A stretch of DNA of 64,000 nucleotides from Bacteroidales bacterium (lineage in GTDB: Bacteria; Bacteroidota; Bacteroidia; Bacteroidales; Azobacteroidaceae). Below, one piece after another: positions 9,440-14,809 of the stretch (positions within the stretch are counted from its first letter, which is position 1; every line of letters starts with the position of its first letter). The position numbers and the translations under genes are program-made. The stretch spans positions 1 through 64,000 of the forward strand of contig BHEP01000008.1 in assembly GCA_003851245.1 (NCBI GenBank), given 5' to 3'. The notes beneath the pieces are model-generated. The model saw only the letters and a list, made by a program, of their open reading frames with translations. It ran no database searches and had not been told where the DNA came from.

Positions 9440-10724
9440 ATTTTTTTGTGCCAGCAATAATAATGTATATCTCTTCTTTTTTGAGATGTTTCTGCGCCAT
9501 TTCCATTATGTCTTCCTTGCTTACAGATTGTATGTCTTCTACTTGTTTTGAGAAATAGGTTTCGGGCAAATCATTGGCATACATTGAAATGTATAGGTCG
9601 GACAAAGAAAAAATGCCATCCAAATTCCTAACAAAATCGCCCAACATATAATTTCTTACCATGTCGAGTTCTTCTATTGTAATAAACTCATTTTGCAAGC
9701 GCGATATTTCTATATGCACCTCATCAATAAGAGGCTGACTAAATTCGCAGGCTGTTTGCGAAGCAATACTTAGGTATGAGGCATGTTTGAGACTTGTAAT
9801 ACTCGATGATATGCCGTAGGTGTAGCCTTTGTCTTCGCGAATGTTTGACATTAATCGGCTGCCGAAATATCCTCCCAAGATGGTATTCATGATGCGAAAT
9901 TTGTTGAAATCGGGCTGCATTCTGTCAATTACGGGGAGTCCCATACGAATGGCATTTTGCATGGCATCGGGTTTTTCTACCCACAATATTTTTTTTGGAG
10001 AGGCTTGAATAAGAAAGTCGGAATGTTTGTTTTCTTGCACACTTCCCCAAGTATCAGTGCCAAAGCTTTTTTCAATGGCTTGAATCATAGTATCATTTAT
10101 TTTTCCTGAAACAAATATGCGGGTATTTTTTGAGTGGTAATGCTCTGAGTAGAAAGACAGCAAATCGTTGCGCTTAAGATTTGAAAAATCTTTTTTTTCC
10201 AAATCATTGCTATACGGATGTTTTTTTCCAAAAAGAGCCTGGCTGAATTTTTTTAATGCCAAGGATTGCACTTTTTCTTGGTCTACAAGAAACTGTTGTA
10301 GTTTTCTTTCTAAGTGAGTATGCAATTCTGCCTCAGGAAAAGATGCTTGTTTGACAATTAGCTCTAAGAGGGCCAGTAGCTCGTAAAAATAGCGAGTGGG
10401 GGCATACAAAGTGAGGTAGGCATGGTGGTATGTTTGTGATACTTGTAGCCACGCACCATAGAAATCCAGCTTTTCGGCAAGTTCCTTAGGTCCCATGTTT
10501 CCTGCTCCTTCTTTGATGAGCAGATTGGTAAATGAAGCCACCAATTTCTTTGACTGCTCCCATTTGCCCGCGGCAATCATGATGTCTAATCGGCATACAT
10601 CTTGTTCTCCCATTGATAATACATGCAGGGGAATACCGTTGGGCAGCACTTGCAGATTCATTTGTGGAATTTCTATCTTCTTAATATCCTTTTTTAGAGG
10701 CTGAATTGTTCTATCTAATTTCAT
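9438..10724 (-). CDS. M16-family (insulinase-like) protein lacking the zinc motif
   Basis: A 428-residue protein with the two-lobed M16 fold: N-terminal half about 20-215, C-terminal half about 240-428 with LGGYFGSRLMSNIREDKGYTYG. The zinc-binding HxxEH that should follow the first strand is replaced by SFTNL in LVASFTNLLIKEGAGN, so it should not be a protease. By family it resembles the non-catalytic subunit of paired M16 enzymes, which holds substrate for an active partner. No active partner is in the window. Its start overlaps the 3' end of kdsB by 14 bp, so the two are co-transcribed. Confidence 0.87.
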   Translation of the reverse strand: MKLDRTIQPLKKDIKKIEIPQMNLQVLPNGIPLHVLSMGEQDVCRLDIMIAAGKWEQSKKLVASFTNLLIKEGAGNMGPKELAEKLDFYGAWLQVSQTYHHAYLTLYAPTRYFYELLALLELIVKQASFPEAELHTHLERKLQQFLVDQEKVQSLALKKFSQALFGKKHPYSNDLEKKDFSNLKRNDLLSFYSEHYHSKNTRIFVSGKINDTMIQAIEKSFGTDTWGSVQENKHSDFLIQASPKKILWVEKPDAMQNAIRMGLPVIDRMQPDFNKFRIMNTILGGYFGSRLMSNIREDKGYTYGISSSITSLKHASYLSIASQTACEFSQPLIDEVHIEISRLQNEFITIEELDMVRNYMLGDFVRNLDGIFSLSDLYISMYANDLPETYFSKQVEDIQSVSKEDIMEMAQKHLKKEEIYIIIAGTKK

Positions 10725-11466
10725 TTGTCATTTTTTTTATTGCTATTTCCATATCTTCAGGACTATCTATTCCCATTGTCTCTTGTTGAGTTATGGCAAT
10801 GCGAATTGTATAATTATTTTCTATCCATCGCAATTGTTCGAGGGATTCAATTTTCTCCAATTTTGAGGGCTTTAGGGACGTAATTTTTTTGAGTATATCT
10901 GCTCGGTAGGCATATATTCCAATATGCTTGTAGTAAGTCGTTTGAGTGGCAAAGGGTTTGTCCGAAGCGTCTCTATAGAAAGGTATTACTGAGCGACTGA
11001 AATAAATGGCCTGCATTTCTTGGTCGAATATTACCTTGGGCGTGTTGGGGTTGCTCACCTCTTCCCATTTATTTTCGTCTGTAAATGCCTTTGCCAGAGT
11101 AGCTATTTGACTTTTTTGCTGGTCAAAACACGATTTGAGGAGTGCTATTTGTTGCGCTTGAATAAAGGGCTCGTCACCTTGAATGTTTATAAGAACATCA
11201 AAAGGTTTTCCAATTTTTTCAAAGGCTTCATAGCACCTATCTGTACCGCTTTGATGGAGGGGAGAGGTCATTACAGCCTTGCCACCAAAACTGCGTACAG
11301 TCTCAAATATCAGCTCATTGTCGGTGGCTACATACAAGTCGTCGAGCTCATTTACCACCTGTTCGTATACTCTTTGTATCATGGGCTTGCCAAGCATATC
11401 AGCCAGAGGCTTGCCAGGAAATCTAGTTGAGGCATATCTTGCAGGTATTATCCCTAAAAATTTCAT
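10711..11466 (-). CDS. kdsB: 3-deoxy-manno-octulosonate cytidylyltransferase (CMP-KDO synthetase)
   Basis: A 251-residue enzyme that activates KDO with CTP for lipopolysaccharide inner-core synthesis. The N-terminal IIPARYASTRFPGKPL nucleotide-binding loop is diagnostic, and INIQGDEPF and the metal-site region (QTTYYKHIGIYAYR) are present. Length is normal for KdsB. It is first in a two-gene unit with the M16 homologue, overlapping it by 14 bp. The link between LPS activation and M16 is positional only. Confidence 0.95.
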   Translation of the reverse strand: MKFLGIIPARYASTRFPGKPLADMLGKPMIQRVYEQVVNELDDLYVATDNELIFETVRSFGGKAVMTSPLHQSGTDRCYEAFEKIGKPFDVLINIQGDEPFIQAQQIALLKSCFDQQKSQIATLAKAFTDENKWEEVSNPNTPKVIFDQEMQAIYFSRSVIPFYRDASDKPFATQTTYYKHIGIYAYRADILKKITSLKPSKLEKIESLEQLRWIENNYTIRIAITQQETMGIDSPEDMEIAIKKMTNEIR

Positions 11467-11507: not shown

Positions 11508-12287
11508 CTAAATAGTTTGCAAAATTAAGTATTGCGATTTTAATATCTCGTGCTCCCATTCGGTAAGGTTCTTTTGCTCGCCATAGCCCCTGTCCTTCAT
11601 TTGAATCATTGCCTCATTCGCCGATTTGTTGTGCTTGAACTCAAAAATATATACTGCCTGCCTACTTTTGCAGACGGCATCTATACGCCCCTTGTTGGTA
11701 GATAATTCGGCATTGAATCTATAAAGCAAATAAAATATACAGTAGAATACTGTATGGTAATAGGCCTCCGAAGACTTGCCTGCACTAAGATGGTAGGGAA
11801 TACTGGCATAAAAAGAGTACGGCTCTTCTATCAAGGACTCAATATCTTGGCTGTCTAAGCTATCTTTAAACCTATCAAGAGTATGGCTAGTATCGAGCAG
11901 AGAGTCGGTGGTGAGGTAGCCCGTTTGTATCAGCAGGGTGGCATATTTGGCATCCATGGTGATGTCGAAGAGCTTGTTGAGCTTAGAGAAGATGCTTGCC
12001 TTGGAGAACTTAGCAATGCCCGTCATAAGCACGAAGCGCAAATAAGAATCCAGCTGCTCTATCTTTAGGCCTGCAAAAAGTTCTTTTTTTACTTCAAAGG
12101 CAGCCTTGAGTGTAGAGATGGTGAGGGACTTGCCAAAGCTACGAAGACGAGAGAAGAAGAAGTAGTCTGTGTCGCCTGTCAGCATCTCGTGTATAAAATC
12201 TGTATTATCTACATACACACAATTTTTGTTGATAAGATCCTCGAAGGAATAAATATCTGTAGCAATGCGCTGGAGTTTGGTGTTCAT
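11508..12287 (-). CDS. Internally deleted AAA-ATPase-like / PD-(D/E)XK nuclease protein
   Basis: A 259-residue reading frame of the family usually found at about 500-580 residues (AAA-ATPase-like N-terminus plus PD-(D/E)XK nuclease C-terminus). Seen: the N-terminal YVDNTDFIHEML and a degenerate Walker-A-like SRLRSFGKSL (46-55). It then jumps at about residue 80 to RFVLMTGIAKFSKASIFSKL, and at about residue 117 from DAKYATL straight to LIQTGYLT. The nuclease motif RIDAV...YIFEFK (about 201-218) is intact, but the C-terminus is rearranged. The Walker B region is absent, so ATPase activity is unlikely. The frame stays open throughout. It looks like an eroding member of a multicopy family. Positions and number of deletions are judged from memory of the family layout. 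Confidence 0.75.
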   Translation of the reverse strand: MNTKLQRIATDIYSFEDLINKNCVYVDNTDFIHEMLTGDTDYFFFSRLRSFGKSLTISTLKAAFEVKKELFAGLKIEQLDSYLRFVLMTGIAKFSKASIFSKLNKLFDITMDAKYATLLIQTGYLTTDSLLDTSHTLDRFKDSLDSQDIESLIEEPYSFYASIPYHLSAGKSSEAYYHTVFYCIFYLLYRFNAELSTNKGRIDAVCKSRQAVYIFEFKHNKSANEAMIQMKDRGYGEQKNLTEWEHEILKSQYLILQTI

Positions 12288-12306: not shown

Positions 12307-12314
12307 CAAAGGTA
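12307..12314 (-). promoter_or_regulatory. Promoter -7 box of the truncated AAA/PD-(D/E)XK gene
   Basis: The minus strand reads TACCTTTG (TAnnTTTG), 19 bp upstream of the ATG at 12287. A preserved promoter box suggests the shortened gene may still be transcribed. Confidence 0.45.
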
Positions 12315-12351: not shown

Positions 12352-14631
12352 TTATAAGGCTTTTTGTTGTATACACAGACTACTTAGTTGCTTAATATTA
12401 CTTCTCTCTCCAACCACCCAAAGTACGTCATCTTCTGAGAAGTCTAAATTTATTTCAGGGTTCATTATTGAGGAATCTTGTCTTTCTATGCCTACAAGCA
12501 AGCAGTTGTACTTGTCTCTTATTCTTGAGTTTACTATTGTTTTTCCAATTAATTTGGAATTGGACTCCACACGTATTTGCTCCAAATTTACTTCGCTATA
12601 AATTTCTTTCTCCTTATTTTGAGTACTGTATTCACTTCCTTTTTTCTCTATAAAACTCTGAAATACAGTCATTTGATCATCGGTGCCTAGCACTATTATT
12701 TTATCAAAAGGATATATATAAACCTCTCCACCAGGTATATTGATACGCTTGTCTCCTCTTATAATGGTCACAATATTTACCCCACAGCTTTGGCGGAAAT
12801 TCAATTCTTTCAGAGTTTTGCCAATGATGGAATAATTGGGGTTAACCACAAAATCTGAGAGGTGCAAATCTCTATTGAGCAGGTGATCAACAAATTTGGG
12901 ACTTACTGTTGCCGTTTTATATTCATACTCTTGGCGGGCATTGAGGTTGTGTTTAAATCGCCGTTCTATGAGTATAGATTGTTTTTTTACTCTTTTTGAA
13001 AATAGCAAAAATGCAACAATAATGCAGGAAATAAGCAAGGACAAATGAAGGGGTAGTTTCATTACATTTACAAACAAGAAGCCTACAATAAATATACAAA
13101 TAAATATCCTTACCACAACAATAAAAAGCAAGGGACTGCGGTTTATCTTATTTTTTACCCACAGTTTGCGAAATTCTATTGAGCGATTTTTCTTAACCAT
13201 AATGGCTCGCAACAAGGGTGACAATATCAAAAGTACGATAGTTATGAATAATAAAGATCCCTTAAGTCCCTCAATATTACTTTTGATAAAAGGTAGGAGG
13301 TAGTGCATGGAGAGAAATATAATCATCAGAGATAAAACAAGATATATTATGACCAATCTACAAATGGCTTTGAGCAGCTTTTTCCAAGTGCCTTGTTCGT
13401 TCATAGGCCTGGCTCCAGAAGCGTCTTTGTTTACAAATTGATATAGGGAGACGGGAAGGTGTTTTTCGGCATATTGATAAGCAGGTTCTGAAAATTTAAT
13501 TAGGTAGGGTGTACAAAACACTGTGACTACCGAAACGGCAACAATTACGGGGTAGAGAAATTCATCGATCACTCCCAAACTCAGACCAGTAGCAGCAATG
13601 ATAAAGGAAAATTCTCCTATTTGGGCCAAAGAAAACCCTGAGCGCATGGCTATTTTTAAAGGCTGCCCAGCGAGTAAAATCCCTATAGTGCCAAATGTTG
13701 TTTGACCAATTATTACAGCCATACTAATGATTGTGATGGGGAGGATATATTCTCCAACCACAAGTATATCTAACATCATACCCACAGAAACAAAAAATAT
13801 AGCACCAAACAGATTTTTTACAGGCACCAATTGATGTTCTATTCTCTCGGCATCCATGGTTTCTGCCAAAATAGAACCCATCACAAAAGCTCCCAAGGCA
13901 GACGAAAATCCTGCCTGGGTAGCAAGATAAACCATGCCAAAACATAGGCTTAGCGATACAACCAAAAGGGTCTCATCGTTGAGGTGGGCTTTGGCTTTCT
14001 TAAATAATGTGGGAATCAAATAGATACCCACCACAAACCAAAACAGCAGGAAGGCTAGGAGCTTCAATATGCTTTCAAGCATCTCAACGCCCTCAAACTG
14101 CTTACTAACAGCCAAGGTGGAGAGTAGCACCATGAGTAAAACAGCAAAAAGATCTTCTACAACCAAAATACCCAAAACAATGCCCGCAAAACCTTGCTTC
14201 TGCAAGCCCATATCATCAAATACCTTGATGATAATCATTGTAGAGGACATGCAAAGCATTCCTCCCAAAAATATACTGTTCATTTGCGACCAGCCCAAGG
14301 CCAGGCCTGTAAGGTAGCCTACCGACATCATAGACACCACAATGGTGGTGGTGGCTATAACTGCAGTAGTTCCGACTCTAATTAATTTCTTAAAACTAAA
14401 ATCCAAACCCAGAGCAAATAAAAGAAAAATAACTCCTATATCTGCCCATATATTTATACTCTCGGGATTGGTGACTGTGGGAAAAAACGTAATGTGAGGC
14501 CCCGCAAATATTCCTGCAACAATATATGCCAATACTACCGGTTGTTTTAATTTCTTGAATATCAACGAAGCAACACTAGCAGAAAATAGTATAAGTGCTA
14601 AGTCGATAATTAAACTGGGAAGATGTGACAT
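12352..14631 (-). CDS. KefB/CPA2-type cation:proton antiporter with two TrkA-C domains
   Basis: I place the start at 14631 (MSHLPSLIID), giving 759 residues. An upstream in-frame ATG at 14727 would add 32 residues that do not look like family sequence. About 12 membrane helices fill the first 400 residues, with the CPA2 motifs QPVVLAYIVAGIFAGPH and SSALGAFVMGSILAET. Another four hydrophobic segments lie around 410-575. The C-terminus carries two TrkA-C (RCK_C) ligand-binding domains, one starting near VNPNYSIIGKTLKEL and one near VNLEQIRVESNSKLIG. No NAD-binding TrkA-N fold is seen between them. By family it exchanges Na+ or K+ for protons at the inner membrane. The ion is not readable. Confidence 0.88.
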   Translation of the reverse strand: MSHLPSLIIDLALILFSASVASLIFKKLKQPVVLAYIVAGIFAGPHITFFPTVTNPESINIWADIGVIFLLFALGLDFSFKKLIRVGTTAVIATTTIVVSMMSVGYLTGLALGWSQMNSIFLGGMLCMSSTMIIIKVFDDMGLQKQGFAGIVLGILVVEDLFAVLLMVLLSTLAVSKQFEGVEMLESILKLLAFLLFWFVVGIYLIPTLFKKAKAHLNDETLLVVSLSLCFGMVYLATQAGFSSALGAFVMGSILAETMDAERIEHQLVPVKNLFGAIFFVSVGMMLDILVVGEYILPITIISMAVIIGQTTFGTIGILLAGQPLKIAMRSGFSLAQIGEFSFIIAATGLSLGVIDEFLYPVIVAVSVVTVFCTPYLIKFSEPAYQYAEKHLPVSLYQFVNKDASGARPMNEQGTWKKLLKAICRLVIIYLVLSLMIIFLSMHYLLPFIKSNIEGLKGSLLFITIVLLILSPLLRAIMVKKNRSIEFRKLWVKNKINRSPLLFIVVVRIFICIFIVGFLFVNVMKLPLHLSLLISCIIVAFLLFSKRVKKQSILIERRFKHNLNARQEYEYKTATVSPKFVDHLLNRDLHLSDFVVNPNYSIIGKTLKELNFRQSCGVNIVTIIRGDKRINIPGGEVYIYPFDKIIVLGTDDQMTVFQSFIEKKGSEYSTQNKEKEIYSEVNLEQIRVESNSKLIGKTIVNSRIRDKYNCLLVGIERQDSSIMNPEINLDFSEDDVLWVVGERSNIKQLSSLCIQQKAL

Positions 14632-14809
14632 GTATTTATTTTTGTTGTAATTTCCAAAATTACAACAAAATAACTGACCAGCAAAAAAATAAACTAATAA
14701 AAACACATGTTTATGCCATGATTTCACAAAGTTTTGTTACAAAATAGATAAAATATCTAAATTGAAATTCTTTATGCCTGAGATTTATTTTATTCTCCTT
14801 GTATGTGTA

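Follow-up and report, generated by a model that had tools for sequence, protein, structure and literature searches.

Proteins of the DUF1703 type, which join an AAA-ATPase_like domain (PF09820) to a PDDEXK_9 nuclease domain (PF08011), are widespread and have been expanded in some symbionts. Their ATPase carries a variant Walker A region, the second and third arginines of which have been proposed to replace sensor residues (PMC1913061). PF09820 is named among the domains found in the RADAR, PARIS and Old-tin systems (PMC10952713), and the Cardinium cCpun genome is credited with 25 recombining DUF1703 paralogues, along with eight partial ones near scaffold borders (PMC6387759). Gene neutralization is described as a rarely caught stage (PMC4224334). 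Searches of the literature on DUF1703 and its Pfam domains, and on in-frame deletion and pseudogenes, brought up no report of a DUF1703 protein that had suffered internal deletions and stayed in frame.

Here we describe an ORF of this kind from a Bacteroidales bacterium (assembly GCA_003851245.1), located in a stretch of 64,000 nt (contig BHEP01000008.1, positions 1 to 64,000), hereafter the window. An earlier note, made from the sequence of the window alone, had taken it for a PD-(D/E)XK family gene with at least two internal blocks lost in frame, either through repeat-mediated deletions that happened to preserve the frame or because a compact nuclease-only protein is kept by selection. We found that a gene for a 527-residue ATPase-nuclease protein has been reduced to about half its size by four or more separate in-frame cuts, and that the frame was probably selected during this shrinkage, be it for the protein or for the operon. 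Frame alone cannot call short, open and Pfam-positive ORFs functional or dead, and a neighbouring operon provides a third possible reason for an open frame, beside function and recent death.

Layout of the ORF and its deletions

Both Pfam domains are recognizable on the 259-aa ORF (Table 1). PF09820 is detected with 82 bits (cut-off 26.1), the best stretch being partial and covering residues 12-81 only (profile positions 4-72 of 201), and PF08011 with 55.2 bits (cut-off 25.5) over residues 173-240 (profile positions 2-82 of 105). A 527-aa paralogue on contig 11 of the same genome (L022:1451-3034, minus strand), the one complete close paralogue in an assembly of 118 contigs, fills both profiles (4-201 of 201 and 2-104 of 105). 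Neither protein matched any family among the anti-phage models of PADLOC-DB at E up to 0.01. The contig 11 copy was used as the reference for a DNA alignment, the comparison with a full-length family member that the earlier note had proposed; gaps are present and their ends could be marked. The blocks flanking each join align to this one full-length paralogue, with 184 identical residues in 244 aligned codons.

Table 1. Coordinates of the ORF, its parts, the joins left by deletions and the neighbouring genes in the window
Feature	Position	Strand	Remarks
kefB-type exchanger (PF00999 + TrkA_C), upstream neighbour	12352..14727	-	Pfam
Candidate -7 box TACCTTTG (TAnnTTTG)	12307..12314	-	Sequence match; presumed consensus
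ORF, internally deleted DUF1703-type (AAA-ATPase_like + PDDEXK_9) paralogue	11508..12287	-	259 aa, ATG start
Block 1, residues 1-80, P-loop side of ATPase	12047..12287	-	Alignment to 527-aa paralogue
Join 1, 312 nt missing (104 codons), including Walker B DEYD	12046..12047	-	
Block 2, sensor-1 strand region (YLRFVLMTG..DITMD)	11940..12046	-	11/11 family-invariant residues kept
Join 2, 348 nt missing (116 codons), helical part between ATPase and nuclease	11939..11940	-	
Join 3, 105 nt missing (35 codons), linker-region beta hairpin and helix	11909..11910	-	
Single-codon deletion, 3 nt, LLPYRF to LLYRF	11724..11725	-	
Nuclease part, E174, D203, E216-x-K218 and Q229 kept	11582..11771	-	Motif roles per PMC1913061
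Join 4, 57 nt missing (19 codons), last core nuclease strand	11581..11582	-	
C-terminal end, KNLTEWEHEI (homologous to KNITESKHEI) and 11 unmatched residues	11508..11581	-	
kdsB-type cytidylyltransferase (PF02348), downstream neighbour	10711..11466	-	Pfam

Relative to the contig 11 copy, the ORF has net deletions of 312, 348 and 105 nt and smaller ones of 57 and 3 nt. All five length changes are multiples of three, and the ORF contains neither stops nor frame breaks, as the earlier note had read from the joins. That note had placed missing blocks at about 12047, holding Walker B, and at about 11936; both coincide with deletions in the alignment, and the 105-, 57- and 3-nt events, which it had not listed separately, are to be added to them. 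The first deletion takes away the Walker B strand (LLIDEYDKP), with DEYD being absent from the ORF, and Walker A is eroded from RPRRFGKS to RLRSFGKS and no longer matches the family motif. The nuclease motifs I (E), II (D), III (ExK) and IV (Q) are all in place, in agreement with the earlier reading. The C-terminus is altered, but not by the simple shortening that had been supposed: an internal deletion has taken out 19 codons, among them those of the last core strand (PIHLVAINF), the KNLTEWEHEI that follows is homologous, and the final 11 residues (LKSQYLILQTI) have no counterpart among the five family tails tested. The idea that this tail is a displaced family strand was dropped after local alignment against the same five tails, which was no better than with shuffled sequences (38 to 238 of 300 shuffles reach the scores).

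The repeat-mediated origin suggested earlier finds no echo at the joins, where no long direct repeats and only weak microhomology were found in comparison with a reference diverged by about 24%, a distance at which the original repeat length cannot be judged. Recent gene conversion was considered as a cause of the open frame and rejected, because over the aligned codons the divergence of the ORF is 24% from the contig 11 copy and at least 22% from each of the others.

The AlphaFold model of the full-length paralogue has a pLDDT of 84.1 and a pTM of 0.80. Deletion ends, read by eye from the alignment, place the losses on this model at the Walker B strand (146-151) and its neighbours, at the helical region from about residue 221 to about 336, at a hairpin with a helix between about 347 and 381, and at strand 502-510, the last in the core of the nuclease. 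The model of the 259-aa ORF is poor (pLDDT 60.6, pTM 0.42), with residues 82-132 below 50 and residues 171-240 at 63-79 by block of ten. Two strands drawn at its new C-terminus (242-249 and 252-258) would sit in the place of the lost strands, at block pLDDT values (44-56) too weak to serve as evidence. Foldseek searches with the full-length model returned AAA+/STAND chains, CED-4 and ORC/Cdc6 at E of about 1e-4, and those with the 259-aa model returned no PDB matches at E below 0.1; the family profile, searched against solved structures, was of no help, its hit being a single designed minibinder (E 0.27). With the last core strand deleted, the model poor and the sensor-1 block of the ATPase retained and conserved, the label 'nuclease-only' is unsafe.

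Constraint on the ORF and the fate of other copies

A dN/dS comparison, which the earlier note had proposed against relatives, was made with our own script for an MG94-type codon model on a star tree of full-length and partial paralogues. Over 244 codons the target branch has an omega of 0.18, and omega = 1 is rejected (p = 8e-13), this being an average over the whole branch, including the full-length era, that does not date the constraint to after the deletions. Omega on the other branches is 0.10, and the difference is not significant (p = 0.11). Because the target branch includes the full-length era, we fitted an unconstrained segment at its tip, with the grid being read by eye. For the whole alignment the fit is best at a fraction of 0, about 8% being the limit when stops count (lnL drop of about 1.9). 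Outside block 1 the best fraction is likewise 0, with a limit of about 7%; for block 1 it is about 0.05-0.1 (range 0 to about 0.28), a relaxation that is not significant alone. Calculated directly from the lack of stops, the time without constraint is at most 0.08-0.11 substitutions per site, in agreement with the tip model.

An alignment of 20 full-length relatives has 86 columns with conservation of 90% or more, and 55 of these survive in the ORF. Block 1 has lost 5 of its 24 family-invariant residues beyond those lost in the paralogue (K28N, L45F, P48L, R50S and G66V), a count that leaves out a 25th residue, P9, different in all copies of the genome. The other blocks have lost 0 of 30, with I486 differing in both the ORF and the paralogue, and the contrast has a Fisher p of 0.013, which is post hoc and rests on small counts. 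P48 and R50 are Walker A positions invariant in all 20 relatives aligned, and R50, the third Walker A arginine, is a serine in the ORF. The contrast is consistent with loss of the ATPase under continued constraint on the other parts. Two observations speak against this: block 2, although derived from the ATPase, matches the nuclease part in its degree of conservation, and a frame-broken copy (C28a) has kept all 11 of the nuclease invariants that it covers.

Further copies in the genome lie on contigs 42, 2, 68, 53, 19, 28 and 45, and several of them are cut by contig ends, which suggests unresolved repeats. Large deletions measure 394 nt (contig 42), 471 and 822 nt (contig 28), 123 nt (contig 2) and 1075 and 52 nt (contig 45); three of these six are in frame, and all four copies bear a frame break or a stop. 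Of 20 stretches with partial copies taken from relatives, most reach contig ends or are simple end truncations. Four carry an internal deletion (L122, L123, L124 and L134) and none of these continues in the same frame, as judged from tblastn frames, which are coarser than the alignments within the genome. Thus, in total 3 of 10 large deletions in this background are in frame, against a chance rate of about one third, and none of the 8 copies has escaped a frame break. In the ORF all four large deletions are in frame, for which the chance is 1/81; this is to be read as one in nine deletion-bearing copies, because the ORF was chosen for its open frame, and so weakens to about 0.1.

Several other features of these copies deserve mention. 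About 35 codons of the sensor-1 strand region (FVLMTGVAKF..DITMD) are largely retained in three differently deleted copies, namely those on contig 28 (L026:4354-4640) and contig 2 (L030:2032-2189) and the one in the window (12046-11940). This may be a detection bias, because remnants of so highly conserved a stretch are the easiest to detect. The contig 42 copy (L023:1278-2462) is a complementary case, in which the ATPase half is intact within a 394-aa ORF, the 394-nt deletion has removed the nuclease and the old tail is thrown out of frame. The copies L024 and L025 (contigs 68 and 2) differ from the contig 11 copy in the first 45 or so residues and are nearly identical to it in the next stretch, a mosaic that looks like intragenic recombination near Walker A. 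A divergent second group (L031, L032 and L033 on contigs 32, 6 and 54) has open frames of 588-591 aa, whose ATPase part shows 23-25% identity to that of the contig 11 copy.

Genomic setting and upstream region

The ORF fills the junction between kefB and kdsB in the direction of both, 64 nt after the former and 41 nt before the latter. A survey that took in some 1.5 kb of flanking sequence showed kefB immediately upstream of kdsB, in the same orientation, at 7 of 15 kdsB loci from the same family; another genome of the order brings the count to 8 of 29 loci outside the genome itself. Because kefB adjoins kdsB without this gene in several relatives, the ORF is probably an arrival in a pre-existing pair, and the benefit to kdsB may be what protects its frame.

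Upstream of the start, a region with a -7 box is common to the ORF and its paralogues (TACCTTTGTAAGA versus TATCTTTGTAAGA). We take TAnnTTTG to be the Bacteroidota-type consensus of this box. The TTG at -33 of the intact copies, about 18 nt further up, is absent at the ORF. The earlier note had correctly seen the -7 box as preserved, but this is no evidence of use, because a wrecked copy retains the same kind of box. An upstream block with a T-tract and CATATCTTTGTAA is conserved at the L022, L023, L024 and L030 copies, with TTGAGG in three of the four. That it travels with the copies, a wreck included, suggests duplication units with a promoter of their own.

Origin of the open frame and comparison with known systems

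The reading we prefer, at a confidence slightly short of even, is that of a paralogue cut down under selection for its frame and yielding a small selected protein. A lineage-specific DUF1703-type paralogue would have entered the kefB-kdsB pair and would have been shortened by at least four independent internal deletions with the reading frame still under selection. The ATPase would be dead, because Walker B is gone and Walker A changed, and the product would most likely be a small protein on the conserved C-terminal half, with the PD-(D/E)XK residues in place and a putative role as an ATP-independent nuclease or as a binding partner of the full-length paralogues. The compact protein supposed in the earlier note is favoured over chance by the frame, the lack of stops, dN/dS and the pattern of residue loss, which fall short of proof; the deleted last core strand, the poor model and the lack of a short-form orthologue among the genomes searched count against it. 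A more specific version, in which the new tail forms an edge strand of the nuclease in a mini-protein that acts as an ATP-independent nuclease or regulates the full-length paralogues, is doubtful. Quite possible, if less probable than a small selected protein, is that the gene died lately, with its deletions in frame by luck and too little time elapsed for a stop or frameshift. The many decaying copies of the family in this genome and in relatives, the up to about 8% of the target branch that may be unconstrained, the damage to Walker A, Walker B and the last nuclease strand, the lost -33 element and the poor structure model all speak for such a recent death, which nevertheless needs four large in-frame deletions and a codon deletion in a short time with neither frameshift nor stop, and has to contend with the frame breaks in all eight other deletion-bearing copies examined and with the uneven loss of invariant residues.

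It is also conceivable, though unlikely, that stops and frameshifts were disfavoured only for their polarity in a putative kefB-kdsB transcription unit, in which untranslated RNA would reduce kdsB expression and the amino acid sequence would be irrelevant. The ancestral kefB-kdsB pair, the position and direction of the ORF in its junction and a frame kept without a foldable product agree with this; an even loss of conserved residues along the ORF would then be expected, and the losses lie in block 1 only. A naturally short DUF1703 subfamily with the layout of the ORF, which the earlier note had named as the outcome that would overturn its claim, is very improbable, and we found nothing in its favour. 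Among the best matches listed in 41 relatives we found no short gene spanning the joins, and a search of 393 genomes of the order, with a few top candidates scored in each and matches listed at E up to 1e-16, likewise turned up no short orthologue. The matches listed from outside the genome in both searches align as partial pieces, with no contiguous short homologue among them, and the seven listed from the 393 genomes all lie in open frames of 528-604 aa. The alignment of the join-flanking blocks to a single full-length paralogue likewise argues against such a subfamily. As a frame-keeping shrunken copy, the ORF marks the part of the protein that may matter without the ATPase, and constitutes a natural minimal construct.

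The ORF shares with the DUF1703-type proteins of PMC1913061 both Pfam domains and their order, the E, D, ExK and Q residues of the nuclease, and a recognizable variant Walker A region; unlike them, it has lost Walker B, the greater part of AAA+ domains 1 and 2, a portion of the middle region and the final core strand of the nuclease. Its genome resembles that of cCpun in having multiple divergent and recombining paralogues. The partial members in cCpun comprise six ATPase-only and two nuclease-only forms, which the authors regard as possibly artefactual truncations (PMC6387759), whereas the ORF is contig-internal and internally deleted. The degraded copies on contigs 2, 28, 42 and 45 come from the same parent family and often keep their ends with the inside deleted; all four are frame-broken, and the ORF is not.
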